From a virus, in IMG/VR virus record IMGVR_UViG_3300025598_000114, positions 1 through 30,627 of that record: 30,627 bases of DNA; one strand, written 5' to 3'. The notes under the pieces were generated by a model. It made no database searches, was not told where the DNA came from, and worked only from the letters and a program-made list of their open reading frames with translations. Position numbers and translations under genes: made by a program. Positions 12,638 to 30,627 of the stretch are shown in pieces. The first letter of the stretch is position 1. Every line of letters begins with the position of its first letter.

Positions 12638-12647
12638 TTGCGTTTCC

Positions 12648-14994: not shown

Positions 14995-17558
14995 TAGAAT
15001 GTTCCTCCATTGATGCCACCAGTAATTGTACTGTTTGTGGCGTTAATTGTAATCCCTGTGCTCGTATATTGGGCTTGATTTCCAGTGGCACTAGACGCAT
15101 AAGTAATGTAATTTGTCGCACCTGATCCAGCACTCAAATTAAGATTGGTTGCATTTGTTGCGTTTGTCACCGCAGTGGTGCCAATTACAGAAACAACTTG
15201 AGATGCAGTCGCTGCAGTGAATGCAGAGGTTCCATTACCGTAAGCCAGTCCTGTGAGTGTCGCGACTCCAGTTCCCCCATTTCCAACTACCAAAGTACCA
15301 CTCAAAGTAATTGCACCTGATGTCGCAGTGCTTGGTGTCAATCCTGTTGTTCCACCACTGAATGTGCTTACGCCACCAGATGGTGCTTGCCAAGATGCAG
15401 TTGTTCCGTTTGAAGTTAATACATACGTATTAGCTCCAATTCCAAGCCTTGTGGCGCTATTAGTTCCGTTTCCAATAATCAAATCGCCAGTTGTGGTGAT
15501 GGGGGATAATGCATTAAAAGCCGTAGAAGCTGTTGTTTGACCTGTGCCTCCATTTGCAATAGGCAAAGTACCTGTAACACCAGTGCTTAAAGGTAAACCT
15601 GTTGCATTTGTAAGAACTACGCTAGAAGGTGTTCCCAACGCAGGAGTAACTAATGTTGGACTTGTAGCTAAAACAACATTCCCACTACCAGTTGTTGAAA
15701 TCGCTGTAACATTGCTTGAACCGTTGGCATACATAACACCAGTTAGTCCAGTTACAGCAATGTTTGTTGTGGTCAAGTTTGTAAATGACTCTGAAGAAGA
15801 GCCAGGCACCTTTTCCCAAACTCCACCAGTGAAAATAGCCCAGTCACCTACATTCCAGCCAGAAACACCATTTAAAGTGGTATTGCCAGCCACAGAAACC
15901 ACATAGTAATAGCTTTGTGTACCAACAGAAGAAGTCAGTGTGGGCGTATTGGTGTTTGCGTTCCAAGTGCCCTGATATGTTGGAGCGTTGATAGGTTGTG
16001 TGCTTACAGAAGTAATTTGACCTTGACTATTAACTTGAAGAACTGGGATTACTGATGCAGAACCATAAGTTCCTGATGTAACACCAGTATTTGAAATTGC
16101 AATTGTGACAGGAGATGAACCATTGAATGATGTTCCAGAAAGTCCAGTACCAATTGTTAATGTACTTGTTGTAGAAGCAGAAATTGTTCCAGATCCACCT
16201 AAACTTATGGATGTACCATTCACAGTTAAAGAACTATTGGTCAATGCAGAGTTGCCAATGTTACTCAATGTATTTGTTGAGCCACTGATTGACTTGTTAG
16301 TCAGTGTGTCGATTGTTGCTCTACCCACCAAAGTGTCAGTGCTTGAGGGTAGGGTCAATGTTCCACTGTTGACAATTGACGAAATGACTGGAGAAGTCAA
16401 TGTCTTGTTTGTCAGTGTCTGTGTGCCAGTCAATGTGGTGACGACTGTCGTATCAATTGCAATCGTGCCTGATACTGTGATTGTTCCGCCAGTCAAGCCT
16501 GTGCCAGCGATAATTTGCGTCACGGTGCCTACGCCAGACAACGTTTGCCAAATCGGATTGCTTGATCCTTGGCTTGTTAAAACTTGACCAGTCAAACCAG
16601 TTGGTGTAACTGCAAAACCAGTTCCGTTTCCATAAAGAACACCGCCAGCAGAAGGGGCTGTAGACAATCCTGTGCCACCATTTGATACGCCCAAAACACC
16701 ACCTAATGTGATGTTTCCTGAGCTTGCACTTGAAGGTGATAGACCTGTTGTGCCTGCGCTAAACGTATTGACTACAGAACCACCTGAACCAATCGCATTT
16801 TGCACAAACGCGGTTGTTGCGATCTGTGTGGTATTCGTTCCAGTTGACGCTGTGGGTGCTATTGGAGTTCCAGTCAATGTTGGACTGTTTGCCAATACCA
16901 CTGAACCTGTACCTGTTGTCGATGCGCTAGAGGATGATGTAGCCCTTCCATAAGCGTCAAACGTCACTGTGGGTAGTGTATATGAGCCTGCTGTTACAGA
17001 AGTCGTTGTAAGCCCAATTTGAGGGCTTGTAGTGCCATTGTTGACGGTAATTTGTCCACCAACGCCAGTGACTGCAACCGTGCTCAGTGATGTGCCACTC
17101 AAAGCCAACAAACCTGTGCCTGTTGTGCCAACTAAGTTTTGTAAAACAGTTGAAAGGCTAATCGTTGGGTTTCCAGTTGTACCATTGCCATTTGCAACTG
17201 ATACGCCTGATCCACTTGATGTAATTTGAACGTTTGTTATCGTTGTACTGTTGGTCTTGACTTGAATGCCGTTACCAGAAGTAAGCAAAGAAGCCAAAGC
17301 GCCAGTCACAGCAATGGTATAGCTACCTTGAGCACCACCATCGGTTGTGGTTAAACCAGTGCTGACTGCAATTTGTCTGCTGTTAGCCAAGCTTGTTTGT
17401 TGGCCAACGGTCAAAAATGTTTGTGTTTGTGTGGGTTGAACCGCAATAGCCCCAGTCGTGGTTTGAACCGTCACTCCATTTTGAACAATAGGAACTGACT
17501 CATTACCAGTCAAAGCACTTGCTTGAGGCAATTGGGTGATTGTTACTTGTCCACTCAT
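14994..17558 (-). CDS. Large tail fibre-like protein (854 aa)
   Basis: The protein begins MSGQVTITQLPQASALTGNE, then VPIVQNGVTVQTT, a typical fibre start. It is then a long chain of beta-rich repeats: NGGTGLSTAPSAGGVLYGNG, TQTLTNKTLTSPVI, GSGNVVLATSPTLVTPALG, NATGLPLSTGVTGTL and ANGGTGQTT. The TLTNKTL motif and NGGTG repeats are well known in phage side fibres. Near the middle, TYQGTWNANTNTPTLTSS and YYVVSVAGNTTLNGVSGW are followed by NVGDWAIFTGGVWEKVPG, a small domain also common in fibres. The C-terminus ends GGINGGTF. It probably forms the shaft of a trimeric receptor-binding fibre. It follows the Cys4 protein by one base and is coupled to the next fibre gene. Confidence 0.85.
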   Translation of the reverse strand: MSGQVTITQLPQASALTGNESVPIVQNGVTVQTTTGAIAVQPTQTQTFLTVGQQTSLANSRQIAVSTGLTTTDGGAQGSYTIAVTGALASLLTSGNGIQVKTNSTTITNVQITSSGSGVSVANGNGTTGNPTISLSTVLQNLVGTTGTGLLALSGTSLSTVAVTGVGGQITVNNGTTSPQIGLTTTSVTAGSYTLPTVTFDAYGRATSSSSASTTGTGSVVLANSPTLTGTPIAPTASTGTNTTQIATTAFVQNAIGSGGSVVNTFSAGTTGLSPSSASSGNITLGGVLGVSNGGTGLSTAPSAGGVLYGNGTGFAVTPTGLTGQVLTSQGSSNPIWQTLSGVGTVTQIIAGTGLTGGTITVSGTIAIDTTVVTTLTGTQTLTNKTLTSPVISSIVNSGTLTLPSSTDTLVGRATIDTLTNKSISGSTNTLSNIGNSALTNSSLTVNGTSISLGGSGTISASTTSTLTIGTGLSGTSFNGSSPVTIAISNTGVTSGTYGSASVIPVLQVNSQGQITSVSTQPINAPTYQGTWNANTNTPTLTSSVGTQSYYYVVSVAGNTTLNGVSGWNVGDWAIFTGGVWEKVPGSSSESFTNLTTTNIAVTGLTGVMYANGSSNVTAISTTGSGNVVLATSPTLVTPALGTPSSVVLTNATGLPLSTGVTGTLPIANGGTGQTTASTAFNALSPITTTGDLIIGNGTNSATRLGIGANTYVLTSNGTTASWQAPSGGVSTFSGGTTGLTPSTATSGAITLSGTLVVGNGGTGVATLTGLAYGNGTSAFTAATASQVVSVIGTTAVTNATNATNLNLSAGSGATNYITYASSATGNQAQYTSTGITINATNSTITGGINGGTF
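15535..15706 (-). repeat. Fibre repeat block (NGGTG / SPTLVTP units), copy in 854-aa protein
   Basis: This stretch encodes GNVVLATSPTLVTPALGTP, SVVLTNATGLPLSTGVTGTL and ANGGTGQTT, almost the same peptide as the block at 14500-14751 in the next gene. It could allow recombination or a deletion between the two fibre genes. Confidence 0.85.
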
Positions 17559-17559
17559 G

Positions 17560-17940
17560 TTATTGGCTCGTGTTGGGGCTTGGGCTTATGATGTTAATGT
17601 TGTCGTTCTGTTGTGGAATATCGTTTCCATTCTGAGTGCTAATGTAGACTTCAGAGGGATTGCCTCCAGGTATATTTGTCCCCGTAGGCGTAACGACCAA
17701 ACCATTGTCATTTGCAGCAACACTGACATCGGGTCTTGGGAATTGTAAGGTAATTCTTTCGGTTTTCCTAGCTGGTAATCTATAGGGATCTTTTTGATCT
17801 GCACACCCTTCTTGACACACCCGAAGACCAGGGAAATTTGGATCAGGCATGGCCTGAATAATTGGTCTTTTCATCTTGCAACGGTCGCAAATGAAGATCG
17901 CAATTACTGCGTTTCCTGTGGTGTCTAGAAAGCGTGGCAT
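17560..17940 (-). CDS. Small Cys4 zinc-ribbon-like phage protein (126 aa)
   Basis: The N-terminal half has a CDRC pair (FICDRCKMKRP) and a later CQEGC pair (FPGLRVCQEGCADQKDPYRL), a spacing that fits a small zinc-binding fold. It is followed by PARKTERITLQFPRPDV. I recall this sequence from conserved small proteins lying between adaptor and fibre genes in podovirus-like phages. The C-terminal half is low-complexity and Asn/Pro/Ser-rich. It follows the adaptor gene by two bases, with AAGG before the ATG. Function unknown; a structural joint or a zinc-stabilised virion part is possible. Confidence 0.8.
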   Translation of the reverse strand: MPRFLDTTGNAVIAIFICDRCKMKRPIIQAMPDPNFPGLRVCQEGCADQKDPYRLPARKTERITLQFPRPDVSVAANDNGLVVTPTGTNIPGGNPSEVYISTQNGNDIPQQNDNINIISPSPNTSQ

Positions 17941-17942
17941 GC

Positions 17943-19016
17943 TTACCTTGTGTAGACAGAAATGTTGGGAGCGAAGTAAATTGGGGACTTGTCCCTTTCT
18001 TCGTTCTCAGCCATGAGGAAGTAATTGTTCGCTTGGGTTTCCAAGTATTGAATCCTTGCGATGTCAACCCCAGGCAATATCAAGCTCATCTGGTGAGCTA
18101 GTAAATACTGAATGGCTTGGTTCCAACGTTGAGGAATTTCCAATTGACCATTCAATGAACCCACATCGTCAATTTGGCGTGAGTACCAAATGGTCATCTG
18201 AATGAACGCATTAGAAGGAGCTGGCCAAAGGGTAATCGTTGCCTGTGGAATTGTTCTGTTGAACCAATACTGATAAGGCTGATTGGCTGTGAAATTCTTG
18301 TTAGGCAGATTGGTATAGTCGTCACGATTCAAACGAGCCATGGTGACTTCAGTGGAGTTGTTGCCAAGGTACCATTCACGCAAAGCCAAAGTTGTGCCGT
18401 TCAATGCTTGAAAACGGTAGTATTGCGCTGTGGCACCAGGGTCAATATCTTGAAAAATCCATTGACCATCAGTCACTGTAACGTTTGTACCCGTGTACAA
18501 GGTCGTCCAAGTCGTTCCATCATAGGAATATTGAAAGCTGTAGTTCCATGTTGCAGATCCACCGTTGGCAACGTATGGCATAAAGCCAATAGATCCAATG
18601 TAAATGCTGTTGTTTGTACCGTAATTGACTGTGTAATTGCCATTTGGCACAGTCATTTGGTTGTACGTCTGTGTGTTTTGATCGTAAATGTAGGATGTGC
18701 TACTGCCATCGCTTGCAGAATATGACCCACTAGGGCGGTTCATTGTGCGATAGAGCGCATTTAAGACATCAACACCGCCTACGGGTAGCAAATACTCGTA
18801 CTGGTCTGGAATAAGGCCATAAACCTGTTTATTGATGGCCCAATAGTTGATGCCCTGATTGATCAGGTTGCTAAGAACAAAAAACAAGGCTTGCTTGGAA
18901 CCCTGAACTTGCTCACTCGTCAACTCTTCCGCCAGTTTGCCCGACAAGCGAGCACCCTGATCAATGAAGTTTTGAACTGTGATTACTGTCTGTCCAACGG
19001 TTCCACTGTAAGCCAT
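17943..19016 (-). CDS. Head-tail adaptor-like protein with inserted carbohydrate-binding-like domain (357 aa)
   Basis: N-terminal (residues about 1-90: QNFIDQGARLSGKLAEELTS, FVLSNLINQGINYWAINKQ) and C-terminal parts (LEIPQRWNQAIQYLLAHQMS, QANNYFLMAENEERDKS) are helical and match phage connector or tail-accessory proteins of the P22 gp4/SU10 adaptor kind. Between them, at about residues 95-222, sits a beta domain with WNYSFQYSYDGTTWTTLYTG, DGQWIFQDIDPGATAQYYRF and LALREWYLGN. This is the pattern of F5/8 type C (discoidin-like) galactose-binding domains. Such an insertion could decorate the neck and bind host glycans. AAGGAT precedes the ATG. The adaptor role is likely, the sugar binding is inference. 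Confidence 0.8.
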   Translation of the reverse strand: MAYSGTVGQTVITVQNFIDQGARLSGKLAEELTSEQVQGSKQALFFVLSNLINQGINYWAINKQVYGLIPDQYEYLLPVGGVDVLNALYRTMNRPSGSYSASDGSSTSYIYDQNTQTYNQMTVPNGNYTVNYGTNNSIYIGSIGFMPYVANGGSATWNYSFQYSYDGTTWTTLYTGTNVTVTDGQWIFQDIDPGATAQYYRFQALNGTTLALREWYLGNNSTEVTMARLNRDDYTNLPNKNFTANQPYQYWFNRTIPQATITLWPAPSNAFIQMTIWYSRQIDDVGSLNGQLEIPQRWNQAIQYLLAHQMSLILPGVDIARIQYLETQANNYFLMAENEERDKSPIYFAPNISVYTR

Positions 19017-19025
19017 TGTTAATCC

Positions 19026-19460
19026 TTACCAACACTTTTTGTGTTTAGAATTTGTTTCGTGTGTACTAACTTTGCAATGTTTTAAATTGATTTTTCCACT
19101 TTTTTCATGGTGTTCAGCTTTATGTTTAACGCTTCCACCCTTTTTAAAAAATTGTCCTTGGTCACCTTGACCAGGGTTTGCAAACCTTCCAACATCAGAA
19201 TCATTGGCCAAAAGATCTTGAGCATATTTCATTGCAGTTTGTCGATTTGCATTAATTGGCAAAACTGTATTGTATTTTGACAAAGGTAAATCACCATTTG
19301 CCATGTTTACGTCTTCTTTAATGGACTGGTATTGTGCTTTAGGTGACAAATGATTGCCTGGCATAGGAATATCAGCAGGGTCTCTTTGAGCATATGAATT
19401 AATTAAATCCAATTGTTGTTGGATTCTTTCAGGACTTGAATTGATACTAAACCCACCCAT
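19026..19460 (-). CDS. Hypothetical protein with Lys/His-rich tail (144 aa)
   Basis: The N-terminal two thirds are soluble and helical (SSPERIQQQLDLINSYAQRD; NANRQTAMKYAQDLLANDSD). The last 40 residues are basic and His-rich (FFKKGGSVKHKAEHHEKSGK) and end in STHETNSKHKKCW. That tail is nearly the same as the end of the 61-residue protein two genes upstream, and the KKGG motif recurs in the large repeat protein at 20893-22605. A clear AGGAG precedes the ATG. I recognise no family; the context between head and neck genes suggests a virion or assembly protein. Confidence 0.75.
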   Translation of the reverse strand: MGGFSINSSPERIQQQLDLINSYAQRDPADIPMPGNHLSPKAQYQSIKEDVNMANGDLPLSKYNTVLPINANRQTAMKYAQDLLANDSDVGRFANPGQGDQGQFFKKGGSVKHKAEHHEKSGKINLKHCKVSTHETNSKHKKCW

Positions 19461-19472
19461 AATTTTCTCCTA

Positions 19473-19865
19473 TTACCACCCTGGGCAGTTCCAACGCTTC
19501 AATGATGCCTTTGCTCTTGGCGCATCACCTGAAGCATGCTTCACCACCCCAGACATTCTTGCACAAAATGAATCTTTTCTAGCACCGCCTTGAGGCTGAG
19601 GAGCCTTTAAATGGCTTCCAGTCTCTCGATTGTACTTAGCCCTACCCTTGGCAGTCAGCCCTGCTCCTTGATCAACTGAGAGCTTCTCACCCCGTCCTAC
19701 GGCTAAAGATGGGCCACCCTCTTTGAGTTTAGCCGTTTTAGCTGATTCACGGAAAGCTTCAGCAGTCGGTGCGCCCTTAGAGCCGACCTTACGCATCTTT
19801 TCACCAGAGCCATGAGCGATTCTCTCTTGTTTTCTATGAATATTGGCATAAAGTCCGTTTTTCAT
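19473..19865 (-). CDS. Conserved basic phage protein, DUF6321-like (130 aa)
   Basis: Start chosen at the ATG at 19865 (MKNGLYANIHRKQERIAHG) in a TAATG overlap; a GTG nine bases earlier is less likely. The N-terminal part ANIHRKQERIAHGSGEKMRK, GSKGAPTAEAFRESAKTAK and the C-terminal part GLTAKGRAKYNRETGSHLK, KDSFCARMSGVV, RAKASLKRWNCPGW are strongly conserved in many phages and match what I know as a DUF6321-type protein. It is very basic, so nucleic acid or capsid-interior contact is plausible. Function is unknown. It belongs to a run of three small basic genes between terminator-bounded structural genes. Confidence 0.85.
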   Translation of the reverse strand: MKNGLYANIHRKQERIAHGSGEKMRKVGSKGAPTAEAFRESAKTAKLKEGGPSLAVGRGEKLSVDQGAGLTAKGRAKYNRETGSHLKAPQPQGGARKDSFCARMSGVVKHASGDAPRAKASLKRWNCPGW

Positions 19866-20050
19866 TACCAACACCCTTTGTGTTTTGAATTCTCATGATG
19901 AGTGGAAACGTTACCACCATGAGCCTTTTTAGCGTGTCTTTTTACACTGTAGGCAATCGCCACTGCCTGCTTCTGGGGCTTGCCTGCGTGAATCTCAGCT
20001 TCAATGTTATGTTCAAAAGCTTTTTTGGATTTGGATTTGGTTAAAGGCAT
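19865..20050 (-). CDS. Small basic conserved phage protein (61 aa)
   Basis: The core SKKAFEHNIEAEIHAGKPQK followed by QAVAIAYSVKRHA is a pattern found in numerous phage and some bacterial small proteins (DUF6496-like, from memory). The tail KKAHGGNVSTHHENSKHKGC ends in Trp and matches the tail of the 144-residue protein downstream. It is strongly basic, without membrane segments. It starts two bases after the preceding gene and its stop overlaps the next start (TAATG). Function unknown. Confidence 0.82.
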   Translation of the reverse strand: MPLTKSKSKKAFEHNIEAEIHAGKPQKQAVAIAYSVKRHAKKAHGGNVSTHHENSKHKGCW

Positions 20051-20052
20051 GA

Positions 20053-20847
20053 TTAGGTTCCTACTCCAGTGACGTTGTTGTTGTTTTGAATTAACTTACC
20101 AATAATAATTGCTCCAGACAAAATAGCAGTTGAACTGGTTGTTGCAATCTGCCATTGAATGTCTGATTTTTGTGGGTATGCAAATGGTGCTGAAGATCTG
20201 TCAATTACATAAACTGAACTAAAGCCTTGAGTCAATACATTGTATTGAACACCATTTACTGTTTGTTGAACGTTGTAATACATTCCATTACCACTGCCCA
20301 ATGTATTATCAGAATTAACTTCTACTACATTCAAATAAAATGTATACCCATTAGGAACAGAATAAATGCTCGCTTGATTTTTACCAACTTTAGGGTTTAT
20401 TTGAGCAACAATATTTATACTTTGTTTAAAGGTAATTGTTCCTACATTAGTAACTTGGCTTGTACCAGCAGATACTAAAGCTACACCATTAACTCTGTAG
20501 TAACTGTTTACAGAAGTTACAGCAGTTGTTCCATTTAAAAATAATGTTTCTGACAATGGGTTATAACTTGCGTCTAATCCAGTAATTAAAATAGAAGCTG
20601 ATGTATTGTCTGATGTAGATGAACTAACAACAGTCAAAACTGCAGCAGATGATGGAAAAGTATATGCAGTGGCATTTTCCCACATAGGAATTGGTGCAGT
20701 TGTAGGAGCGGTTGACGATGTAATACCACCGTTGTAACCAAACAAACTAACAACGCTGTGTCCATAAATTTGACCGCGAGCTACTTGTAAATCAAATGGC
20801 TCATACGCTCCTGCGCGTGTGACTGAAGAAACGATACCGTTACTCAT
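20053..20847 (-). CDS. Beta-rich structural protein (264 aa)
   Basis: The N-terminus AGAYEPFDLQVARGQIYGHS, the motif PIPMWENATAYTFPSSA, ILITGLDASYNPLSETLFLN and IYSVPNGYTFYLNVVEVNSD are patterns I recall from virion proteins lying downstream of capsid genes in podovirus-like phages. The protein is Ser/Thr/Val-rich and beta throughout, with no enzyme motif, fitting a capsid decoration or head fibre. AAGGAT lies 8 bases before the ATG and directly after the U-tract of a terminator. A paralogous flavour is seen in the 333-residue protein near 23 kb (LDTPRAVQLTT, TVSGYDYYGQAMSEVI). Confidence 0.8.
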   Translation of the reverse strand: MSNGIVSSVTRAGAYEPFDLQVARGQIYGHSVVSLFGYNGGITSSTAPTTAPIPMWENATAYTFPSSAAVLTVVSSSTSDNTSASILITGLDASYNPLSETLFLNGTTAVTSVNSYYRVNGVALVSAGTSQVTNVGTITFKQSINIVAQINPKVGKNQASIYSVPNGYTFYLNVVEVNSDNTLGSGNGMYYNVQQTVNGVQYNVLTQGFSSVYVIDRSSAPFAYPQKSDIQWQIATTSSTAILSGAIIIGKLIQNNNNVTGVGT

Positions 20848-20858
20848 AATTTATCCTT

Positions 20859-20886
20859 AAAAAGTGGGAGAGCCGAAGCCCTCCCA
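20859..20886 (-). terminator. Rho-independent terminator with UUCG tetraloop
   Basis: On the minus strand a nine-pair stem (TGGGAGGGC pairing with GCTCTCCCA, one G-U) closes a C(UUCG)G loop and is followed by C and five T. The stem spans 20865-20886 and the T tract 20859-20863. It lies just after the stop of the His/Lys/Gly repeat gene and before the ribosome site of the next gene. Confidence 0.88.
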
Positions 20887-20892
20887 TCTTAC

Positions 20893-22605
20893 TCAACACT
20901 TTCTCATTGAGCCACCACGTTTTTTAGCGGGTGCTTTTGGAGTTTCTTTAGAACTAAACAGATTCTTAATTGCATTCACTCCGCTTTTGATAGCGTTGGG
21001 AATCATATTTTTATCTGCTTCATTCTCAGCGCGTTGGGCTTTTTCCCAGTTTGCGTAGTCTTGGTTAGCCTTTTGTGCAAATTGGTCGTCGGAGGTGCTT
21101 CCACCTCCATCAAACTTTTTTGTTGCACGACCTCCACGTTTGTAGCCTCTGTTTACTTCATGCATAGCTGTCATGTGAGCATCTTCAGCGTCATCCGTAT
21201 GGGAATCCCCTTCAGTTAAATGCTTACCTTCAGGTGTGTAGAATTTGGTTCTGTACTCACCATAGTCTTTGTCTTTGTAAACTTTAGCTACGTGACCTTT
21301 AGGGCCTGTGTGTGTCTTTACTAGGCGTAAGTTTGGCTTTTCAGGATTCTTTTGTAATCTTTTAGCAAGATCACTGTAGTAATCCACTTTACCACCTTTA
21401 GCAAAGGTACCAGATTGCAAGCTGTTAGCCACAGGACGGCTGACGAAGTGGTGAGGCATTTTTACTGCCTTACCATCATCGACTACATTACCCCCTGTGG
21501 CGTAGTGCTTTTTTGCTGCGTGGCCTCCATGCTTGTATCCACCTGCATTGGACTCATGAACTTCACCAGTGTGACCCATTTTCTTGCCTGCGGTAGCAGT
21601 GTCAGCAGAACGGTTTTCCCAGTCTCCGCCTTCCACTGTGTCATGCTTGAAATGACCTTCCTGTTTGCCCTTCATGGTCGCTGCTGGTATTGCACCGCCA
21701 GTAGCCTTGTGATGCATCTTGTGGGCTTTACCACCATGCTTATAGCCACCTGCGTTGGTCTCCTTGATGCCACCAGTACCATGCGCTTTGTCACGCTTGG
21801 CTGAGTGCATCTCGGTGTTCAAGTAGTCATGCTCATTTCCCTCAATGGTGCCATGCATCTTGATCTTACCTTTGTTGACCTTCTCATTGGTGTCAGCAGG
21901 AATAGCGCCTCCAGTGGCTTTGTGATGCATTTTGTGCGTCTTGCCACCGTGTTTGTAGCCTGCTGGTTTACCTTCATGGATTTCGCCTGTGCCATGGTGC
22001 TTGTCATGATGTTGACCATCAACAACCATGGTCTTCTCGAATTTCTTCGCGTTACCCTTGATTGTTGTTTTGGTCTCGTCACGGTCAATAGCGCCACCAG
22101 ATGCCTTGTGGTGCATCTTATGAGCTTTTTCCATTGGCATAGACTCGTGATGATGGAGTTCTTTCTCCAACTTCTCAATGTGCTTTTCCATGCCCATGTG
22201 ACCGCCTTTTTTCATGCCAGTCAATGCTTTTCTCACCATTGCAGCGCGAGCCATGCGAGCACGGGGATCCATCGCTGCAATTGCTGGTCTAGCCATAGGA
22301 GCCATAGGAGCGCCCATCATGCCACCGTCAAGCTTGTGCTCAACCTTGCCACCCTTTTTGTATTGGTTGGGGTTCATTGCCTTACGACGCTCAGACATAG
22401 AAGGCTTCTTAGGAGCCTTACCATGCTCAGCCTCAAAAGCGTGATGAGCACCGTGCATCATGCCACCAGAAGCTTCGTGCATGGATTTGTGGCCATGCTC
22501 TTCGGCTTTCATGCCTTTGTGATGCACTTTTCCACCTTTTTTGAGCTTCAGAATGACTGAAGGCTCATCGGTGTACATTTTTACCATTGGTTTAAATTGA
22601 CCCAT
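20893..22605 (-). CDS. His/Lys/Gly-rich tandem-repeat protein (570 aa)
   Basis: No function is recognised. Three tandem units of about 62-71 residues (about 162-223, 224-294, 295-363) each begin HKMHHKATGGAIP, run through a variable charged part with a GxGEIHE-like motif and end NAGGYKHGGKA; a fourth remnant follows. The N-terminal part is His/Met/Lys-rich with KKGGKV motifs. A compact non-repeat domain (about 404-485: DYYSDLAKRLQKN, LVKTHTGPKGHVAKVYKD, KFYTPEGKHLTEGDSH) is more conserved-looking. The protein ends KKRGGSMRKC. Composition suggests binding of DNA, phosphate or metal. It has a strong AGGAGG site, follows a structural gene closely and is closed by a terminator. A virion-internal basic protein is one option (inference). 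Confidence 0.85.
   Translation of the reverse strand: MGQFKPMVKMYTDEPSVILKLKKGGKVHHKGMKAEEHGHKSMHEASGGMMHGAHHAFEAEHGKAPKKPSMSERRKAMNPNQYKKGGKVEHKLDGGMMGAPMAPMARPAIAAMDPRARMARAAMVRKALTGMKKGGHMGMEKHIEKLEKELHHHESMPMEKAHKMHHKASGGAIDRDETKTTIKGNAKKFEKTMVVDGQHHDKHHGTGEIHEGKPAGYKHGGKTHKMHHKATGGAIPADTNEKVNKGKIKMHGTIEGNEHDYLNTEMHSAKRDKAHGTGGIKETNAGGYKHGGKAHKMHHKATGGAIPAATMKGKQEGHFKHDTVEGGDWENRSADTATAGKKMGHTGEVHESNAGGYKHGGHAAKKHYATGGNVVDDGKAVKMPHHFVSRPVANSLQSGTFAKGGKVDYYSDLAKRLQKNPEKPNLRLVKTHTGPKGHVAKVYKDKDYGEYRTKFYTPEGKHLTEGDSHTDDAEDAHMTAMHEVNRGYKRGGRATKKFDGGGSTSDDQFAQKANQDYANWEKAQRAENEADKNMIPNAIKSGVNAIKNLFSSKETPKAPAKKRGGSMRKC
21517..22122 (-). repeat. Three tandem in-frame repeats, about 185-215 bp each
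   Basis: The units encode HKMHHK(A)(T/S)GGAI at one end and YKHGGK/H at the other. Lengths are about 62, 71 and 69 residues. Ends are well conserved and middles diverge (KGKIKMHGTIEGNEHD versus KGKQEGHFKHDTVEGGD), showing old duplications under selection for the ends. Confidence 0.9.
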
Positions 22606-22617
22606 GATGCCCTCCTA

Positions 22618-23619
22618 TTAGGCTTGAGTTACGCCAAGAGCACCAGTGCGTGTTGCATTGGGGCCAGTTGCAATACCAGGCAATGCAATCACAACGACCA
22701 AACGTTTTACACCGTTTGATGCCGTAGAAGGCACATAAGTACCGCGCACATCACCAGTTGTTGATGTTGCAGGTGTGGTCAAATCTGCTACTGTAAATGC
22801 GCTATTGCCACCTGTGTCATTGGCTAGAGTGTTATTCCAACCCACACGAACAATGTAGCCTGCGTCAAATACACGCAAAGGTAAACCTAAAATATCTGTT
22901 GTACCAACAGTAATTGCCACTGGCAAAGAACCGTTAATTGCAATGCTAGATATTTGGTAGAAAGCTTTCTTGCCAGAAACATTAGCAACAGCAGAAGATG
23001 TTGTACCTGTAGCAATCACTTCAGACATTGCTTGTCCGTAATAATCGTATCCAGACACTGTCAAGTTACGGCTAGTGGAAATAGTTCCAGAAGCTGTAGT
23101 CAACTGAACTGCACGGGGTGTGTCCAATTGAATGACTGTTGTACCATCATTGCGAAGGAATGACTTGGCATTAGTACCAGCGGTCAGCGTCAAGTTGCCT
23201 GAAGCAGCAGGGGTTTGTGACGCAGCAATGTTGCTTGTGTTTAATGTTTGAGGAATTACATCCCAGACATACTCACGACCCAAGGGGCCAACACCAACTT
23301 CCATTGGAGATGGGTCTTGCAAGCCATAGTTGCCTGAAGCGTAAATTGTGATTGAACCAGTTGCTGATGATGAAGCACTTAGCGTGTAAGTACCTGTTCC
23401 ACCCGCACCAGTTACAAAAGCAGTAATGTAAGAGTTGGCTGTAATGCCAGTTCCGTTTACATACTGTCCAAGGGTGAGCGAGTCACCAGAGTTCATTGCG
23501 GTTACTGTCATTGTGGTTCCAGTTACGGAACCAGTGATAACAGCTTCACTGTTGGTTACATTGGTACCAATGTAGCCTTGGGCTGTACCCAAAAATAGAT
23601 CATCTGAAAATTGAGGCAT
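22618..23619 (-). CDS. Beta-rich head or decoration protein (333 aa)
   Basis: After a short N-terminus (MPQFSDDLFLGTAQGYIGTN) a Gly/Thr module at about residues 28-93 (GTTMTVTAMNSGDSLTLGQY; GAGGTGTYTLSAS) is inserted. It also occurs in the tail-hub protein. The rest (GPLGREYVWDVIPQTLNTSN, RAVQLTTASGTISTSRNLTV, GLPLRVFDAGYIVRVGWNN) is a conserved-looking structural protein following the capsid gene in related phages, as I recall. AGGAG precedes the ATG. It is the first gene after the capsid terminator, so it depends on read-through or its own promoter. Decoration or head-fibre role is likely but unproved. Confidence 0.8.
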   Translation of the reverse strand: MPQFSDDLFLGTAQGYIGTNVTNSEAVITGSVTGTTMTVTAMNSGDSLTLGQYVNGTGITANSYITAFVTGAGGTGTYTLSASSSATGSITIYASGNYGLQDPSPMEVGVGPLGREYVWDVIPQTLNTSNIAASQTPAASGNLTLTAGTNAKSFLRNDGTTVIQLDTPRAVQLTTASGTISTSRNLTVSGYDYYGQAMSEVIATGTTSSAVANVSGKKAFYQISSIAINGSLPVAITVGTTDILGLPLRVFDAGYIVRVGWNNTLANDTGGNSAFTVADLTTPATSTTGDVRGTYVPSTASNGVKRLVVVIALPGIATGPNATRTGALGVTQA

Positions 23620-23654
23620 TTTTTTCTCCTTGTGGCTTGAACCACTCAGGGTTT

Positions 23655-23683
23655 AAAAAAAGGGGTGGAAACAACTCCACCCC
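23655..23683 (-). terminator. Rho-independent terminator after the major capsid gene
   Basis: On the minus strand a perfect eight-pair stem GGGGTGGA / TCCACCCC with a six-base loop (23662-23683) is followed by seven T (23655-23661). It lies 7 bases after the capsid gene stop codon. A small second hairpin (GTGG/CCAC, 23632-23645) follows just before the next ribosome site. Confidence 0.93.
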
Positions 23684-23690
23684 ACTTTGA

Positions 23691-24605
23691 TTAGACTCCA
23701 GGTGTACCGTAGGCACAACGGGGATCTGTAAAGCCAACGTCGTAACGCTCTGTGGCTTTGTAGCGCATAGAGTCAGTTTCAAAGTCGCCTTCCATGGTCT
23801 TCTCTAGACGTCTGCGCATCAAAAGCTTGAAGCCTTCGGGAGCATCAGTCTGAACCCACCATGCTGTAGATGAAGTCAAACGTGACAACACTGCGGCACC
23901 CTCGTCAAGCAAACCGATAGATTTGATTGGGTTGATGTCGTTGTTGGCGTTGCCTGTACGTAGGACAGATTTCAACAATACTTCAGCTTGGAAGATATTG
24001 CCTGGAGCCACGATCAATTGACGTGGTACCAAACGAATACGCTTACCGTTGTTGTCAACTGCTTGGCGGATTTGAATCAACATCTGTTCGAGAGATGTTT
24101 GAGACAAAACGGCGGCTGTGGCCAACTGGTTGCTGAATGTGCCGTTAACGATGGGGTGTGCTGTGCTGATCAAAGACACACCATCACCGCCAGGGTAGGC
24201 GCTATTGAAAGCTGTGTTCAACACGTTAGCTGACAACAACTCTTTGGTCTCAACCAAAGATTGTGCCAAGTGGCGTGCGTACACTTGACCGATACGGATG
24301 TGGTCGCCATCTTCCACCAACACTTTTGTCAAAGCGAAGGCTAGGCCATACACTTTGTACAAATAGCGCTTGAGGAATAACACACCACCCTGTTGATAGG
24401 TCACTGGAGTGCCATCAGGGAGTTGGGGTGCTGCGCCAAATCCATATAGGACGGGCTCTTCGTGGTAGTTACGGGGAATGCCGTCTTCTTCGCGGAACAC
24501 TCGGCTCCACTCGTCGGCACGTTGGTCATAGACTCCGTCAAAACACTCGTTAAGAATTGGCTCAACGATTGATCTAAAGTCCGTACTTCGCATTGGTGCT
24601 GCCAT
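23691..24605 (-). CDS. Major capsid protein, HK97-fold (304 aa)
   Basis: It would build the icosahedral shell. Features that suggest it: FRSIVEPILNECFDGVYDQR at the N-terminus, a central helix region (YARHLAQSLVETKELLSANV), DGVSLISTAHPIVNG, PRQLIVAPGNIFQAEVLLKS and GLLDEGAAVLSRLTSSTAWW. The ending DSMRYKATERYDVGFTDPRC is also typical. The LISTAHP motif and VPRQLIV...P strand are typical of HK97-type and Mu gpT-like capsid proteins. At 304 residues it is of usual length without a delta domain. A strong AAAGGAG precedes the ATG and a strong terminator follows the stop, as expected for the most expressed gene. Gene order portal-chaperonin-scaffold-capsid supports the call. Confidence 0.9.
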   Translation of the reverse strand: MAAPMRSTDFRSIVEPILNECFDGVYDQRADEWSRVFREEDGIPRNYHEEPVLYGFGAAPQLPDGTPVTYQQGGVLFLKRYLYKVYGLAFALTKVLVEDGDHIRIGQVYARHLAQSLVETKELLSANVLNTAFNSAYPGGDGVSLISTAHPIVNGTFSNQLATAAVLSQTSLEQMLIQIRQAVDNNGKRIRLVPRQLIVAPGNIFQAEVLLKSVLRTGNANNDINPIKSIGLLDEGAAVLSRLTSSTAWWVQTDAPEGFKLLMRRRLEKTMEGDFETDSMRYKATERYDVGFTDPRCAYGTPGV

Positions 24606-24620
24606 TGCAATACTCCTTTA

Positions 24621-25262
24621 TTAAACAACAGCAGTAGTAGCTGCAACAAATTGAACATATGGCAACGTTACACGAACAATCGTGTATGCATCACCCCAAG
24701 CGTTGTCCACATAGGGAGCGAGATCAACGACACGCATCTGACCTTGAGCACCGTTAGCTTGGTTAGAAGCTGATGCCAAAGTTGCTTGCGACAAACCAGT
24801 GGTTGTTGAACCAGCGGTAATGTTACTGAAGTTGTACTCGTCGCCAATAGACGTTTGAGCCATTGAACCATCTGCTTGAATTTCATAAACGATTTTTTCG
24901 TCGTTGTAGAAGTAAGCAACGCAAGTTCCTGCTGTGTAAGCAGTGCTTGCTGGCCAATAGTTAGAAATACGTGCACGACCAGTTGTATCTGTCCACTGTA
25001 CGCCTGCGAATGCACCAGCGACTTGGTAGCCTGATGATGCTGCGCTATTGCCAGGGGTGGCAGAAGGAACGATTGTGCCGTTAGCAATTCCTGACAAGCT
25101 TGTGGCTGTCAAGACTGCGGCTGTGACGTAAGAAACTGGTTGTCCTTTTAAAATGTTTACGGACAAACCAGATTGAATACCGCCAGCAAGCGCCTGAGCG
25201 CGATCCAGACCAGAGGGGTGGAACGCAGGGCGCAAGCCAAACGGAGCATTAGTTGCTGACAT
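24621..25262 (-). CDS. Possible capsid accessory or decoration protein (213 aa)
   Basis: Start set at ATG 25262 (MSATNAPFGLRPAFHPSGLD) with AAAGGAG seven bases upstream; a TTG six bases earlier is unlikely. The NAPFGLRPAFHPSG beginning is one I recall from proteins just upstream of capsid genes in many uncultured phages. The middle (YQVAGAFAGVQWTDTTGRAR, ISNYWPASTAYTAGTCVAYF) is beta-rich, and the end (LAPYVDNAWGDAYTIVRVTL) is Trp/Tyr-containing. No signal or membrane segment. A capsid-binding or minor head role is inferred from position; it might also be a second shell protein. Confidence 0.75.
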   Translation of the reverse strand: MSATNAPFGLRPAFHPSGLDRAQALAGGIQSGLSVNILKGQPVSYVTAAVLTATSLSGIANGTIVPSATPGNSAASSGYQVAGAFAGVQWTDTTGRARISNYWPASTAYTAGTCVAYFYNDEKIVYEIQADGSMAQTSIGDEYNFSNITAGSTTTGLSQATLASASNQANGAQGQMRVVDLAPYVDNAWGDAYTIVRVTLPYVQFVAATTAVV

Positions 25263-25279
25263 AGTCAAACTCCTTTAGG

Positions 25280-25825
25280 TTAACCCGAAAATACGGGTGT
25301 TTTGCTTGGTTGCTGTTCAATTCCGCCAATACCTTCACCCTCAACATTTACAAGCGACTTTCCGTTGCTATCACGTTGGCCTTGGAGACTCTCAATTTGT
25401 ACACGAATCTTGTCAGCTTCTTCACGAGGTTTGTCGTGATGCTGATAGGTCATGACCTCTTGGAAAATATCCATGGGCAATTTGAAAAGCAACATCTCGT
25501 TGCACGATATGTAACCTACGTACTCACCCGATTTAATCTTGTAATCTTCATAGCCTGGTAACTCTTCCGACTTAACGGGTACGTACCCAAGGCGAATCCG
25601 CTTATCAATTGAATCGTAGCTGTTGGTTGTTGAAAGCCAGCAAAGGTGCCACCCATCTACGTTGGGTAGTTTTGGCAGTGCTGATTGCGTCCACTCCTCG
25701 CTCCACATTTTTTTACGTTCCTGCGTAGAAATGAACTTATCTTCAGGTGCTTTGTGGGATGCTTCCCCGTTATCACGGTCTTGGCGACCACTTGCATTCA
25801 AAGATTTTTTTAGACGTGATTCCAT
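25280..25825 (-). CDS. Conserved hypothetical head-region protein (181 aa)
   Basis: The N-terminal 40 residues are charged and Ser/Lys-rich. The core WTQSALPKLPNVDGWHLCWL, YDSIDKRIRLGYVPVKSEEL and EYVGYISCNEMLLFKLPMDI is well structured, followed by a helix (YQHHDKPREEADKIRVQIES) and a Gly/Glu-rich tail. I recognise the pattern from unnamed proteins beside scaffold genes in podovirus-like phages, without known function. TGGAG stands before the ATG. A scaffold cofactor or assembly factor is possible. A weak hairpin (ACCCG/CGGGT) overlaps its last codons. Confidence 0.72.
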   Translation of the reverse strand: MESRLKKSLNASGRQDRDNGEASHKAPEDKFISTQERKKMWSEEWTQSALPKLPNVDGWHLCWLSTTNSYDSIDKRIRLGYVPVKSEELPGYEDYKIKSGEYVGYISCNEMLLFKLPMDIFQEVMTYQHHDKPREEADKIRVQIESLQGQRDSNGKSLVNVEGEGIGGIEQQPSKTPVFSG

Positions 25826-25840
25826 GTTTTACTCCAAGTA

Positions 25841-26839
25841 TTAGTTACGGTTTTTATTCTGACGGTCAAACTTGATGAAATTTTCAATCATCTTCGCTTT
25901 GCGCACAGGGTTCTCCCATGCACCAGCTTCCTTCATAGCACTCACTCTTTCTGGGGTGAGGATGAACTGGGTACGGTTTGTACCCCCATAAGCTGCAGAT
26001 GCCTCGCGTCCTGAACTTCCCACAACATTCCTCGGTCTTCGAACAGTGGAATTACTGTCTGTGGTTTCATTATAACGATGTGGTAGAGATTTTTGCAAGC
26101 GACTATCGAGTTCATCCCAATAATCTGGATCTTTTGGATCCCAACCCTCTTCAACTAGCATTTCAGACGCCTTCAAAGTGACTTTACTGTCTCTATCTGT
26201 GCCGTCTACTTTATACCAACTGTGCTTATTGATCCATTGAGCAGCGTTTCTCTGCGTCTCTGGGTCAGGCAACCTGATGTTGTCAAGATTTTGTTGCTGT
26301 GGGGCTTGTGTTGCCTGTCTTTTTATTTGATTGAGTTGGCTTAGGTTGACTTTTGCCTCATCTAAAAGGTCTTGAGCCTCCACCATGGCTTGTCCATCAT
26401 TGGAACTAACCGCCTCAGCCATCTTCATCTTGGCATATTCCAAGCGAACTTGGGTGTCCTCGATGTTTTTGTCGATCCGCATGACGTCTGACTGGCGTGT
26501 TCTGCTCTCCACCTCTGTCAAACGACGCTTAAACTCCTCATTTTCACGTTGGAGTTGTTGCAAACGAAGGTCTTTTTCCTCGTTTGTCTTGCGAATCAGG
26601 TCTTTTTTGGCTCTGCGACGGTTTCTTTTAGCGTCTCTGAGCGCTTGGTCATCGTCTGGATGGTCAGCGTCCTCATCTTCAACTGTTCCACCCTCTTTTT
26701 TCTCAGGTGGAGTTGTTGCCACATCATTTAATTGATCATCTTCGTCATTTGTGAGCAAGTTTTCGTCTAATTCAACGACAGCAGAGCCGTCTTGCGCCTC
26801 TTCTATCTTTAAATCTGGTGTTTTTTTATCTTCTGCCAT
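25841..26839 (-). CDS. Probable scaffolding protein (332 aa)
   Basis: The N-terminal third is very acidic (EEAQDGSAVVELDENLL, TNDEDDQLND, EDEDADHPDDDQALRD). A long highly charged coiled coil follows at about 70-175 (RNRRRAKKDLIRKTNEEKDL; QLQRENEEFKRRLTEVESRT). The C-terminal part has a folded-looking segment (QWINKHSWYKVDGTDRDSKV; EEGWDPKDPDYWDELDSRLQ) and ends basic (MIENFIKFDRQNKNRN). An elongated helical protein with a basic C-terminal helix, encoded between portal and capsid, is the hallmark of phage scaffolds, which guide capsid assembly and then leave. The acidic N-terminal motif EEaQDGSAvV is shared with the portal. GGGAAAA precedes the ATG; no protease is seen. Confidence 0.75.
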   Translation of the reverse strand: MAEDKKTPDLKIEEAQDGSAVVELDENLLTNDEDDQLNDVATTPPEKKEGGTVEDEDADHPDDDQALRDAKRNRRRAKKDLIRKTNEEKDLRLQQLQRENEEFKRRLTEVESRTRQSDVMRIDKNIEDTQVRLEYAKMKMAEAVSSNDGQAMVEAQDLLDEAKVNLSQLNQIKRQATQAPQQQNLDNIRLPDPETQRNAAQWINKHSWYKVDGTDRDSKVTLKASEMLVEEGWDPKDPDYWDELDSRLQKSLPHRYNETTDSNSTVRRPRNVVGSSGREASAAYGGTNRTQFILTPERVSAMKEAGAWENPVRKAKMIENFIKFDRQNKNRN

Positions 26840-26850
26840 GATATTTTCCC

Positions 26851-27303
26851 TTATACGTATGTTTTGAACGACAACGGATCATCTGTGATGGCCGAAATCA
26901 GTTCGTGGTCGTTGATAGTCATGAACAAAACAGGATCTTCACCGTCTTCAGTAGGAACTTTGCGTTCCCAACGGTCTCCACCCCATCTTGGAACTCTTAC
27001 AAAGTCGCCAAGCTCAGCCCATGAGCCTTCAGCCCACGGTTGCATGGTGTCCCTGTTCTTGAACGCCAATGGGCCAATAGCCACGACCTTACCGATCATG
27101 TTGTTCCACTTTTCGTTCTCTTTGGTTTCATCAACAATGATGATCATTCCAGACTTCTTTTTTATTCGTCGAAGTTGGACGATCACTCGACCACCAAAAG
27201 GGCGTTGCCCTGGGTTTACGTCTGGGAATGCCCATGCTAAATCTTCTGCATTGGGCGTACCTTGGCTTCCCTCAATCGTAGGGATCTTCTCTTTCTCACT
27301 CAT
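26851..27303 (-). CDS. GroES-like co-chaperonin (150 aa)
   Basis: GroES caps the GroEL chamber; phage versions (T4 gp31 and others) let the host chaperonin fold capsid proteins. Here PFGGRVIVQLRRIKKKSG (residues 35-52), GMIIIVDETKENEKWN (mobile-loop and following region), MIGKVVAIGPLAF (69-81), ELGDFVRVPRWGGDRW (97-112) and VLFMTINDHELISAI (125-139) follow the GroES beta-barrel order. The first 34 residues are an extra N-terminal segment not found in bacterial GroES. AGGAG is five bases before the ATG. It sits between portal and scaffold genes, which fits a role in capsid folding. The hydrophobic tripeptide of the mobile loop looks like III or IIV. Confidence 0.82.
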   Translation of the reverse strand: MSEKEKIPTIEGSQGTPNAEDLAWAFPDVNPGQRPFGGRVIVQLRRIKKKSGMIIIVDETKENEKWNNMIGKVVAIGPLAFKNRDTMQPWAEGSWAELGDFVRVPRWGGDRWERKVPTEDGEDPVLFMTINDHELISAITDDPLSFKTYV

Positions 27304-27381
27304 ACTAACTCCTAAAAAACACCATATCTCAGGTGCATCGTTAAAGCGCTTTTCAGCGCGGCCTCAGTCGCGGAGTGCGAC
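27304..27381. other. 78-bp intergenic stretch with a small hairpin
   Basis: This is the longest gene-free gap in the head module. On the minus strand it holds GCGCT-GAAA-AGCGC (27346-27359), a five-pair stem with a GNRA loop followed by TTT. That is too weak to call a terminator. The ribosome site AGGAG of the chaperonin gene is at its end. No sigma70-type promoter is convincing to me. Confidence 0.5.
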
Positions 27382-27561: not shown

Positions 27562-27695
27562 TTTTTCTTAGACAAAGGGGAAGCAGTTTTCTTACCGCCA
27601 TCCTTCATGCTTTGTCCGTTCACAGGGGCGCCTTGAGCCAAGCGCTTGTGTTGGGGTACGTTGATGCTCTTTTGTTCTTGATCAGATGTTGCCAT
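27558..27695 (-). CDS. Tiny basic hypothetical protein (45 aa)
   Basis: ATG at 27695 follows AAGGAG by seven bases and lies inside the portal gene end (14-base overlap). The frame ends at TGA 27558, overlapping the next start by ATGA. The peptide starts MATSDQEQKSINVPQHKRLA and ends KKTASPLSKKK. It is basic and probably disordered. The good ribosome site and the double overlap support a real gene. Confidence 0.72.
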   Translation of the reverse strand: MATSDQEQKSINVPQHKRLAQGAPVNGQSMKDGGKKTASPLSKKK

Positions 27696-30168
27696 TTGGG
27701 GCTCCTTGGGGTTGTGGCGTTGGCGCCTGTGGTTGTGCCATGGGTTGTCCCATAGGCGGTTGCATCTCAGGCGGTTGTGCCTGAGCTATGTTTTGGATTG
27801 TCTCATGCGTTAGCTTGGCGTTTTCAATGGCAATTTTTGTTTGATTGTCCATTTGCGATTTTTGCATATCCGCTTGCAACTTGGCTTGCTCATACTGAGA
27901 TTTGGCTTGATCAGCCTGTGTCTTGCGTTGTGTCTCAGCCATGCTTGTCTCTTTAACGACTTGCTCGGCTGGGGGTAGATTACCCTGAGCTGCTTGAGCG
28001 CGTTGTGATGCCACTTGTATAAGCTGTTGGAAGGCAGGTACAAACGCTTTAAACACGTCTTTGGTATCCAACTCCACATGTGCGCCAACGGTCGTGTATA
28101 GCTTGTCTATGGTAGCTGTGAGGCTAGGATCATCATAGTTGTTGATTGGCTTGCCACCTTGCGACTGTGCCACATATGCATTACTGCGGTTCAAGTACCA
28201 CAATGTCATGTGTTGCTTGATGTGTTCAATCAAGTTGTTAATGTAGTTGGGGTCAGCAAACGGTGACTGACCAAAGAATGGATTCAATCCAAATTGCAAG
28301 TGATCTTGGATGTGTGCAATATGGTCTTGTTGCATGTAAGCGTATGAAGGCTGTCCAAGCAACATGGCTGCGTTCTCATCCGCAGAAGTCCTTTGCTCAG
28401 GCGCTGGCACATCCTTCATCAACTCATTAACATTAGGCACCTTCAACTGCTTGAGGAACCTTGAAAGCACTTGTGTCATGTTGAATTGATCTGGGTGTTT
28501 TTCAGCCAAGGCCAACACAGCTTGGTTCTGAGCCATCCGTTGGGTCTCAGAGAAGATGTGAGGATCAGATACAGGAACAACGTCTGTATTGCGTGAAAAA
28601 TCTTCGCGTTCAATCTCTAAATCGGCAACAACTTCAGACTTGCGCATCTCATCAAAGTGCCAACGGTTCAGTCTGCAAAGGATCTTTAGTACCCTTGCTT
28701 GTGACTCGTGCATCCTTGCGTGGATGGCAGAAAAGACTGCTGCGCCTTGCTCAATCAAAGCCTGAGTTGTACCCACAGGGGCTTGTGCATTGACATCAGC
28801 AATCTTTTCTTCACTGGTACTGACTACCCCCTTAGCTGCGGTGTCAAGCCATCCTAGAAGCTCAAATAGAACTGCGCTAGGTGGATTGAACGGCATGGGC
28901 ATGGCTATCTGACGGATGTCATTAACTCCAGGTGCTCCCTCAATTTCAACAATTTGAGTGATGTCAACTTGTTGGGATTGGCCACTAATCTTAGCCCCCT
29001 TGAGCTTGAGCATGGTGGCTGCGTTGTTGATGTGAGCAGAGTCCAGAAGCGCTCTAAGTGATCCAGTGAGGGCAGCGGACAATCCACCAATGAGATGAGG
29101 GAGACCAATCGCATATGCACCCCTCCAAGGGATAAACTTAAACTCCACAATCCAATCCAACTTGGTCATGGTCTCATCTTCTTCTTCCCAGTTCCTGTAC
29201 AAGCCAACAACCTCATTGTCTAGCTCGTCAATCATCAAGATGTAAGGAACCATCTTGCCCTTGCTGTACTTGTCCTCTTCCAACTCAAGGTAGGTGTAGA
29301 TGTGGTAAACCTTGCGCAATCCGTCTTTGTTGTCCTCCCACTTTTTACCTTCAATCTTGTCGTTGGCTTTCTGTGGTTTAGTTTGATCGGGCTCAGACAC
29401 CGCTTGGATAACATTCACATCACGGTACATTCCACTGGCAATGCGACGGTTAAACTCCCAATGGGTAATTTCATGCACCTCTGCAGCTCGTTGGGCTGTA
29501 TAGAAGTTGGTCGCTGCAAACGGTAATATCACCCTATCAATTGGCAAAAACTCCACACAGGGCCGTTTTTTGTCTTCATCAAACCATAGCTTAAAGTATT
29601 GGCTTCCACCCAATGGCAACTGAGTCAGCAACTGCTCTTGCTCATCGCGGAACTCTTCAATCTGCTCAGTGATCTGCCAGTTCAGATAGTCACGCTTACG
29701 CTCAGCTTTCTGAGTCTTCATTTCATCGACCTTGCCAAGGATTTTAGTCCTGACAGGGCCATCTGGTGGGAACATTTCTTTGATGGCGCGAGCAGCGAAG
29801 TCAACGCAACCCTCAGCCATCGCTGGGTGCACAACCTTAGACGCTCCCATGAAGGTAGCACCGCCAGGGGCATCATTCCCCATGCCAGTACGCTTTAATC
29901 CTTCTTCGTATTGCTTATCTCTTAGTTCACGGGCTTCTTTGTCATTCTTGACTAAGTCCATGTAGCGCATGGCAATAGTACGAAGTTCACCTTCGTCATA
30001 GTCTTCTGCCATGTTTGCATAAAAGTCTGGATTCTCTTCTGGGCCACTGCTTGGTATGGTGACAATCGCTGAGCCGTCTTCTTGCTCTTCGGTTTCCATC
30101 TCAGGCATGTCAACAAGAGCAGAACCATCGTCTTGCTCTTCAATGTTCATATCGTCTTGGTTACTCAT
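27682..30168 (-). CDS. Portal protein, P22-like (828 aa)
   Basis: Forms the dodecameric ring at one capsid vertex through which DNA enters and leaves. Evidence: length near the large P22-type portals (P22 about 725), and a mainly helical core with motifs KVVHPAMAEGCVDFAARAIK, MFPPDGPVRTKI, GGSQYFKLWFDEDKKRPCVE, EWRGAY-like stretch FKFIPWRGAYAIGLPHLIGG and ALTGSLRALLDSAHINNAAT. A Gln-rich helical C-terminal region (KTQADQAKSQYEQAKLQADM) could form a barrel, and the tail is Pro/Gln-rich. The first 40 residues are acidic with a duplicated motif EEQDDGSAlV and EEQEDGSAIV, also present in the scaffold. TAATG overlap with the previous gene, GAGG upstream. The terminase genes probably lie beyond 30627. 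Confidence 0.92.
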   Translation of the reverse strand: MSNQDDMNIEEQDDGSALVDMPEMETEEQEDGSAIVTIPSSGPEENPDFYANMAEDYDEGELRTIAMRYMDLVKNDKEARELRDKQYEEGLKRTGMGNDAPGGATFMGASKVVHPAMAEGCVDFAARAIKEMFPPDGPVRTKILGKVDEMKTQKAERKRDYLNWQITEQIEEFRDEQEQLLTQLPLGGSQYFKLWFDEDKKRPCVEFLPIDRVILPFAATNFYTAQRAAEVHEITHWEFNRRIASGMYRDVNVIQAVSEPDQTKPQKANDKIEGKKWEDNKDGLRKVYHIYTYLELEEDKYSKGKMVPYILMIDELDNEVVGLYRNWEEEDETMTKLDWIVEFKFIPWRGAYAIGLPHLIGGLSAALTGSLRALLDSAHINNAATMLKLKGAKISGQSQQVDITQIVEIEGAPGVNDIRQIAMPMPFNPPSAVLFELLGWLDTAAKGVVSTSEEKIADVNAQAPVGTTQALIEQGAAVFSAIHARMHESQARVLKILCRLNRWHFDEMRKSEVVADLEIEREDFSRNTDVVPVSDPHIFSETQRMAQNQAVLALAEKHPDQFNMTQVLSRFLKQLKVPNVNELMKDVPAPEQRTSADENAAMLLGQPSYAYMQQDHIAHIQDHLQFGLNPFFGQSPFADPNYINNLIEHIKQHMTLWYLNRSNAYVAQSQGGKPINNYDDPSLTATIDKLYTTVGAHVELDTKDVFKAFVPAFQQLIQVASQRAQAAQGNLPPAEQVVKETSMAETQRKTQADQAKSQYEQAKLQADMQKSQMDNQTKIAIENAKLTHETIQNIAQAQPPEMQPPMGQPMAQPQAPTPQPQGAPNGNI

Positions 30169-30599
30169 TATTTTTTCCTCATCAATTCAAGAATCATAGT
30201 ATCCAAGTTTTTGTTAATCATGACATTTGGTTTGGGCGCATGATAAGGCATATCTTCATCTTCACCACGACGCATTGCTAAGTGACGTTGTGCAATTGGG
30301 TTTTGCTCAGGGAATGCATGGAAATCATCATCACTATAACCCCAATGTCTTTCACCAACCAAACCACCGTCCGCTTTGCGAATAATCTTAATTGGTTGTG
30401 GTGCAACATATTCTTTGTTTGCGCTTCGTAACTGATCTTCAGGTTTGTCAATTACGTATTCACCTTTTGTTTTTACAGCGTGTTTGATGTCTTCATCACT
30501 TACATTATGTGTAAATGATGTTTGATGTCCCACATTGCTAGTAGATTCAGTTGGTGTGGTCATTAAAATATGTCCAGCAACTTTGCCATTTTTAGTCAT
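30168..30599 (-). CDS. Hypothetical protein upstream of portal (143 aa)
   Basis: The protein begins MTKNGKVAGHILMTTPTEST and has DEDIKHAVKTKGEYVIDKPE, KADGGLVGERHWGYSDDDFH and FPEQNPIAQRHLAMRRGEDE. It is soluble and charged, with no signal or membrane segment, and I do not recognise a family. It is coupled to the portal gene by TAATG, so it may be an early head or packaging cofactor. Only 28 bases upstream are visible, so its ribosome site is incompletely seen. Confidence 0.7.
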   Translation of the reverse strand: MTKNGKVAGHILMTTPTESTSNVGHQTSFTHNVSDEDIKHAVKTKGEYVIDKPEDQLRSANKEYVAPQPIKIIRKADGGLVGERHWGYSDDDFHAFPEQNPIAQRHLAMRRGEDEDMPYHAPKPNVMINKNLDTMILELMRKK

Positions 30600-30627
30600 A
30601 TAACGATTTTTGACTTGTTTGTTTAAT

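Follow-up and report, generated by a model that had tools for sequence, protein, structure and literature searches.

Two described systems are among the closest to the protein analyzed here. Iyer et al. (2017, PMC5512222) propose that polyvalent proteins are packaged and then injected. The internal proteins of T4 are diverse, have only a targeting sequence in common, and contact DNA phosphates through lysine (PMC3012670). The present protein bears on how phages without T4-type signals select proteins for the next cell. We analyzed a single lake-virus record of 30,627 bases (IMGVR_UViG_3300025598_000114; hereafter, the window). Judging from its recognizable capsid, portal (phrog_1216), SU10-type adaptor and spanin genes, the window is a tailed-phage fragment. 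One of its proteins, rep570, carries repeated [FY]xxGG motifs, here called pegs (Table 1).

Table 1. Features of the window, listed from high to low coordinates
Feature	Position	Strand	Basis
Large polyvalent-type protein, C-terminal end, cut by the window edge	30168..30627	(-)	KADGGLV, LDTMILELMRKK tail; C-termini of L098 and L082 similar
Major capsid protein, Phage_capsid_4 / Mu gpT-like	23691..24605	(-)	Family matches
Intrinsic terminator directly 3' of the major capsid gene	23683-23662	(-)	9 bp stem, T7 tail, about -17 kcal/mol
333-aa structural protein, block gene 1	22618..23619	(-)	phrog_38233/21413 matches, synteny
rep570, basic, mostly disordered GG-motif repeat protein, 570 aa	20893..22605	(-)	ORF, composition, AlphaFold
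Near-invariant N-terminal segment MGQFKPMVKM.TDEPSVILKLKKGGKV, residues 1-31	22513..22605	(-)	45 aligned relatives
Repeat unit 1, residues 163-224	21934..22119	(-)	Local alignment
Repeat unit 2, residues 225-295	21721..21933	(-)	Local alignment
Repeat unit 3, residues 296-366	21508..21720	(-)	Local alignment
Conserved core VVDDGKAVKMP..VSRPVANSLQSGTFxKGG, residues 373-405	21391..21489	(-)	Relatives aligned
Optional cassette, residues 402-488, contains phrog_7884 domain	21142..21402	(-)	Precisely absent in L006/L007
phrog_7884 domain, beta-beta-beta-beta-alpha fold	21148..21315	(-)	Profile match, AlphaFold
Predicted long helix (506-550) and RGGxxxC tail with final cysteine	20896..21090	(-)	AlphaFold, homologue comparison
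UUCG-loop intrinsic terminator directly 3' of rep570	20886-20865	(-)	About -18 kcal/mol
61-aa protein, phrog_2423, HGG motif, near-identical ...NSKHKGCW tail	19865..20050	(-)	Translation, PHROG match
144-aa protein, FKKGGSV motif, ...NSKHKKCW tail	19026..19460	(-)	Translation

An earlier note on this DNA had placed rep570 in a two-gene block bounded by terminators, and we found both hairpins. Among relatives, 45 of 71 had a terminator after the rep570 gene and 35 of 47 had one after the capsid gene, and none of 75 had one immediately upstream of rep570, in the gap separating the block genes. Because both terminators recur and the space just upstream of rep570 has none, we take the block to be real. 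We searched for a sigma-70-like promoter at the block head and found none, so transcription of the block may depend on read-through or on a phage promoter. At least 586 IMG/VR stretches encoded a relative of rep570, and closer work used the best 80. Among these 80, the capsid and 333-aa genes lay upstream in nearly all contigs that reached far enough. Based on its phrog_38233/21413 matches and synteny, the 333-aa protein is probably a head decoration protein.

The open reading frame matched the 570 residues described earlier. The three repeat units that the earlier note had reported stood as diverged repeats of 62–71 aa, with local alignment scores of 139, 107 and 167 against shuffled means of ~37 (Z = 14, 11 and 18). 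They were visible at the protein level only, and a DNA-level tandem array was rejected. We observed 21 GG pairs in rep570 compared to 9.2 expected from shuffles, and 10 copies of [FYWMILV]xxGG compared to 1.8 expected. With a pI of 9.7, a net charge of ~+41 at pH 7 and 15% Lys, rep570 is strongly basic; it was also largely disordered by AlphaFold prediction, in which confidence was low except at residues 426–486 and some helices. With 45 sequences as input, pLDDT was <50 across nearly all of residues 163–381, and the repeat units look like disordered spacers rather than domains in these models. The repeats matched no characterized family, in line with the earlier note: the Pfam search of rep570 gave no significant match, and the only PHROGs match was a family of unknown function on the C-terminal domain. 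A sequence search of solved structures gave no convincing match, and literature searches found no description of the GG motif in phages.

Across the family, composition spanned 0.3–11% His, 10–16% Lys and 12–20% Gly, with net charges of +24 to +54. The family conserves a strongly positive net charge, a chain predicted to be disordered, the same N-terminus, three to four xG[FY]xxGG pegs and usually a single terminal cysteine. Peg copies numbered three in 57/75 homologues and four in 16/75. At 1394 family GG pairs, position −3 was enriched 10-fold in Tyr and 8-fold in Phe, and the second residue after GG was enriched 5-fold in Val and 6-fold in Ile. Exactly one cysteine was present in 46 of the 71 complete homologues. 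We also observed that cysteine was the final residue (window 20896–20898) in 48 of these 71.

The earlier note had further suggested that this protein, rich in His, Lys and Gly, could bind metal or phosphate, and the window copy does have 8.8% His. We found that His was not conserved: it made up 6–11% of residues in one subset and 0.3–4% elsewhere, with the architecture unchanged. Because His-richness varies in this way, it is highly improbable that rep570 serves to bind metal or phosphate through His-rich repeats.

We compared divergence at 32 loci with six marker genes, of which 31 were compared to the window after exclusion of the near-identical L002. Relative to the window, the median identity fell from 97% in the capsid to 79% in a gene with relatives annotated as co-chaperonin GroES, and was lower still in the 333-aa protein (58%) and in rep570 (48%). 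The examined region of Caulobacter phage KcrB, whose capsid was 77% identical, contained no gene resembling rep570, so the common capsid does not require rep570. A single record in the phage collection had the rep570 repeat architecture, the hypothetical protein UOF78453.1 (MW202545, Manatee Spring Caudoviricetes). Like rep570, it sits after the capsid gene; unlike the window copy, it is His-poor and lacks the phrog_7884 cassette, and its function is not annotated. Two contigs of metagenome-assembled genomes gave hits, one betaproteobacterial and one small Akkermansia contig; because either may be a contaminating virus, we rejected a host assignment from them.

The separate C-terminal domain claimed by the earlier note exists, with a confident AlphaFold fold and a phrog_7884 match; its bounds are residues 426–486 and not 404–485. 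The phrog_7884 profile (positions 9–63 of 66) matched residues 431–486 (E = 1.6e-11). This domain was present in about one third of the relatives (26/75 homologues by pattern, 27 by tblastn). In L006 and L007, the flanks were nearly identical to those of the window rep570 and residues 402–488 were missing. The junction changed from SGTF-AKGG...RGY-KRGG in the window to SGTF-KKGG, such that the loss was exact at the flanking [FY]xxGG motifs. Indels between similar homologues had their left end at GG in 24/24 cases and both ends at GG in 16/24, compared to 10% for random placement; the 24 are distinct by coordinate, and several come from related pairs and are not all independent. Modules were thus gained and lost at the pegs.

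In T7-like Pseudomonas phages (CHF7, uligo), relatives of the module are stand-alone genes that come second or third among the early genes, ahead of the RNA polymerase. Pseudomonas phages of the Ghunavirus and Uliginvirus groups encode phrog_7884 proteins that are homologous to rep570 residues 431–486. There they are free early proteins of ~70 aa, whereas in rep570 the domain is a cassette within a protein of the structural module. Foldseek searches with the cassette fold returned small Pseudomonas phage proteins and segments inside 310- and 1001-aa proteins of uncultured phages. A structure search of the PDB with the cassette found nothing significant. We rejected a known fold for it; the best full-length likeness, to HVO_2922 (6q2z, E = 0.61), was a hint only.

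These observations bear on the idea that rep570 is a DNA-condensing or charge-neutralizing internal protein only, its cassettes being passengers with no function in the next host. The charge, the lysine content and the predicted disorder of rep570 would suit such a protein, as would the lysine–phosphate contacts of T4 internal proteins (PMC3012670). It is quite unlikely to be the full account, as it would leave unexplained why the N-terminus and the peg number are conserved and why a cassette related to early genes recurs.

Several proteins have the GG motif in common, so interest extends beyond the rep570 gene alone. In six related contigs (44–59 kb), the narrow motif [FY][KRAHST]xGG occurred 9–14 times compared to 2–5 expected. 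Its sites were mostly in rep570, in a 1000–1600-aa protein encoded before the portal and in small proteins after rep570, with few elsewhere. The large pre-portal protein is a mosaic with GG linkers between modules and a conserved GG-helix tail at its end; depending on the phage, its modules matched ART-PolyVal, GDSL lipase plus ASCH, or GP88. In contig G001, it adjoins a 354-aa ART-PolyVal protein (PF18760, E = 5e-17) with the same helix tag at its start and AKGGNV linkers. More distant phages showed a similar style with other tails, for example YAEGGLV...FDPARIDAIV.

The window and G001 were 99.4–100% identical from 10776 to 30173, a stretch that runs through the portal gene, and then carried different alleles of the large gene. 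This switch (window vs G001, L092) lies at the gene boundary near 30173; it is as expected of an effector locus and reflects either recombination or a contig chimera. The protein set of G001 (L091–L092) also included a Mom-like DNA modification protein (PF25680, E = 8e-26), which suggests modified phage DNA.

Several further observations concern the small proteins and their tails. Two unrelated small proteins of the window (19026–19460 and 19865–20050) end in nearly one tail, STHETNSKHKKCW and STHHENSKHKGCW. Proteins from this region in relatives end in ...PFKKGGKVNW or ...PFKTGGSSCW. The protein at 19473–19874 has a C-terminal DUF6321, and several PHROG families bear a matching segment at their C-termini. 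This segment is a possible further virion tag, and our literature searches gave no account of DUF6321 in phages. Six loci with capsids ~77–83% identical (L154, L161, L163, L181, L185 and L187) encode other GG-motif proteins, in which a second segment (GKVMGEF...KQAxAIAxSEAR) recurs and resembles phrog_2423.

Two further explanations give the pegs a different role. The first places rep570 on the outside of the head, as a disordered tether of many binding points that would cement or extend its block partner's decoration layer by holding repeated capsid sites with its pegs. A series of pegs would fit a repetitive lattice, rep570 is encoded with the 333-aa structural gene in one terminator-bounded block with no terminator between them, and both proteins diverge fast relative to the capsid (median identities of 48% and 58% vs 97%). 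We consider this placement doubtful, since large polyvalent-type proteins that carry enzymatic domains have this motif too and would be hard to explain as outer decoration, and the relatives of the cassette are early intracellular proteins.

The second is that rep570 is a polyprotein, cut at the pegs by a maturation protease that frees its units as small basic peptides in the head. Some viral proteases, of the adenovirus type, cleave directly after Gly-Gly, internal head proteins are processed in several phages, and the motif does lie between modules. Against this, a peptidase family was absent from the Pfam matches of 37 proteins from this phage (ORFs of at least 90 aa), in a search that also covered 25 of 52 PHROG families. 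A search for Peptidase_C48 (Ulp1-type) gave no match but was likewise silent on the controls, so it carries no weight. Overall, cleavage at the pegs appears unlikely.

We favor, with about even confidence, a carrier function in which rep570 is virion cargo that is packaged in the head, associates with DNA and is delivered together with the genome. Here, a long, basic, disordered chain would lie inside the virus head, and the repeated pegs would be its attachment points for loading during head assembly. Its lysines would associate with the DNA in the head. Folded modules of small size, in this case the phrog_7884 domain, would sit between pegs and reach the next host along with the DNA, and the pegs would double as recombination sites for module gain and loss. 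This model draws on the post-capsid position, the basic and disordered chain, the conserved pegs, the indels at GG and the exact cassette loss, together with the occurrence of pegs in polyvalent-type proteins and the kinship of the module to early genes. From these we infer a location in the head interior, DNA association, delivery and a binding partner for the pegs. The earlier suggestion that rep570 could condense DNA or be ejected is partly supported by its strong charge and predicted disorder, which fit a DNA-associated or ejected internal protein. Counted against the carrier model are the putative decoration protein as block partner, which fits an outer-surface role equally, the lack of a rep570-like gene in KcrB, and the low AlphaFold confidence outside residues 426–486 and some helices. 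Among loci with KcrB-like capsids, the co-occurrence of post-capsid GG-motif proteins with large pre-portal motif proteins showed a trend opposite to the model ([[2,5],[10,3]], P = 0.06), but gene calls and motif definition were too noisy for us to base a claim on it.

A wider and more tentative possibility is that tailed phages of aquatic habitats generally use the repeated aromatic-x-x-Gly-Gly peg, often with a helix tag behind it, as a code for loading cargo, which would recruit otherwise unrelated effector modules into the head and also serve as the crossover point for their exchange. A repeated, easily mutated motif common to an abundant phage group would allow a direct test of cargo choice. 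The GG motif could also be used as a tag for undescribed injected host-takeover or anti-defense modules in metagenomes.

Compared to polyvalent proteins (PMC5512222), rep570 is similarly mosaic, its modules differ among close relatives, and it is encoded amid virion genes, next to late ones. The same phage (contig G001) has a genuine ART-PolyVal protein with GG linkers. Unlike polyvalent proteins, rep570 has one recognizable folded module and consists mostly of basic disordered repeats. In place of several biochemical activities per chain, it combines this module with helices and disorder, and a catalogued polyvalent domain is found in its G001 neighbor (PF18760) rather than in rep570 itself. 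Family searches gave no sequence relation of rep570 to the T4 system, and its near-invariant N-terminus had no relation that we found to the T4 capsid targeting sequence. The T4 signal is a single cleaved N-terminal segment, whereas that of rep570 is repeated and internal, and no maturation protease was recognized among the Pfam matches of the 37 proteins scanned here. Like the T4 internal proteins IPI, IPII, IPIII and Alt, rep570 is Lys-rich and basic, is diverse among relatives, has a short conserved signal and carries modules that likely act in the host. Because two defining features of polyvalent proteins are absent and homology to the T4 proteins is not established, we do not class rep570 as a member of either group; by analogy, it appears to work like both.
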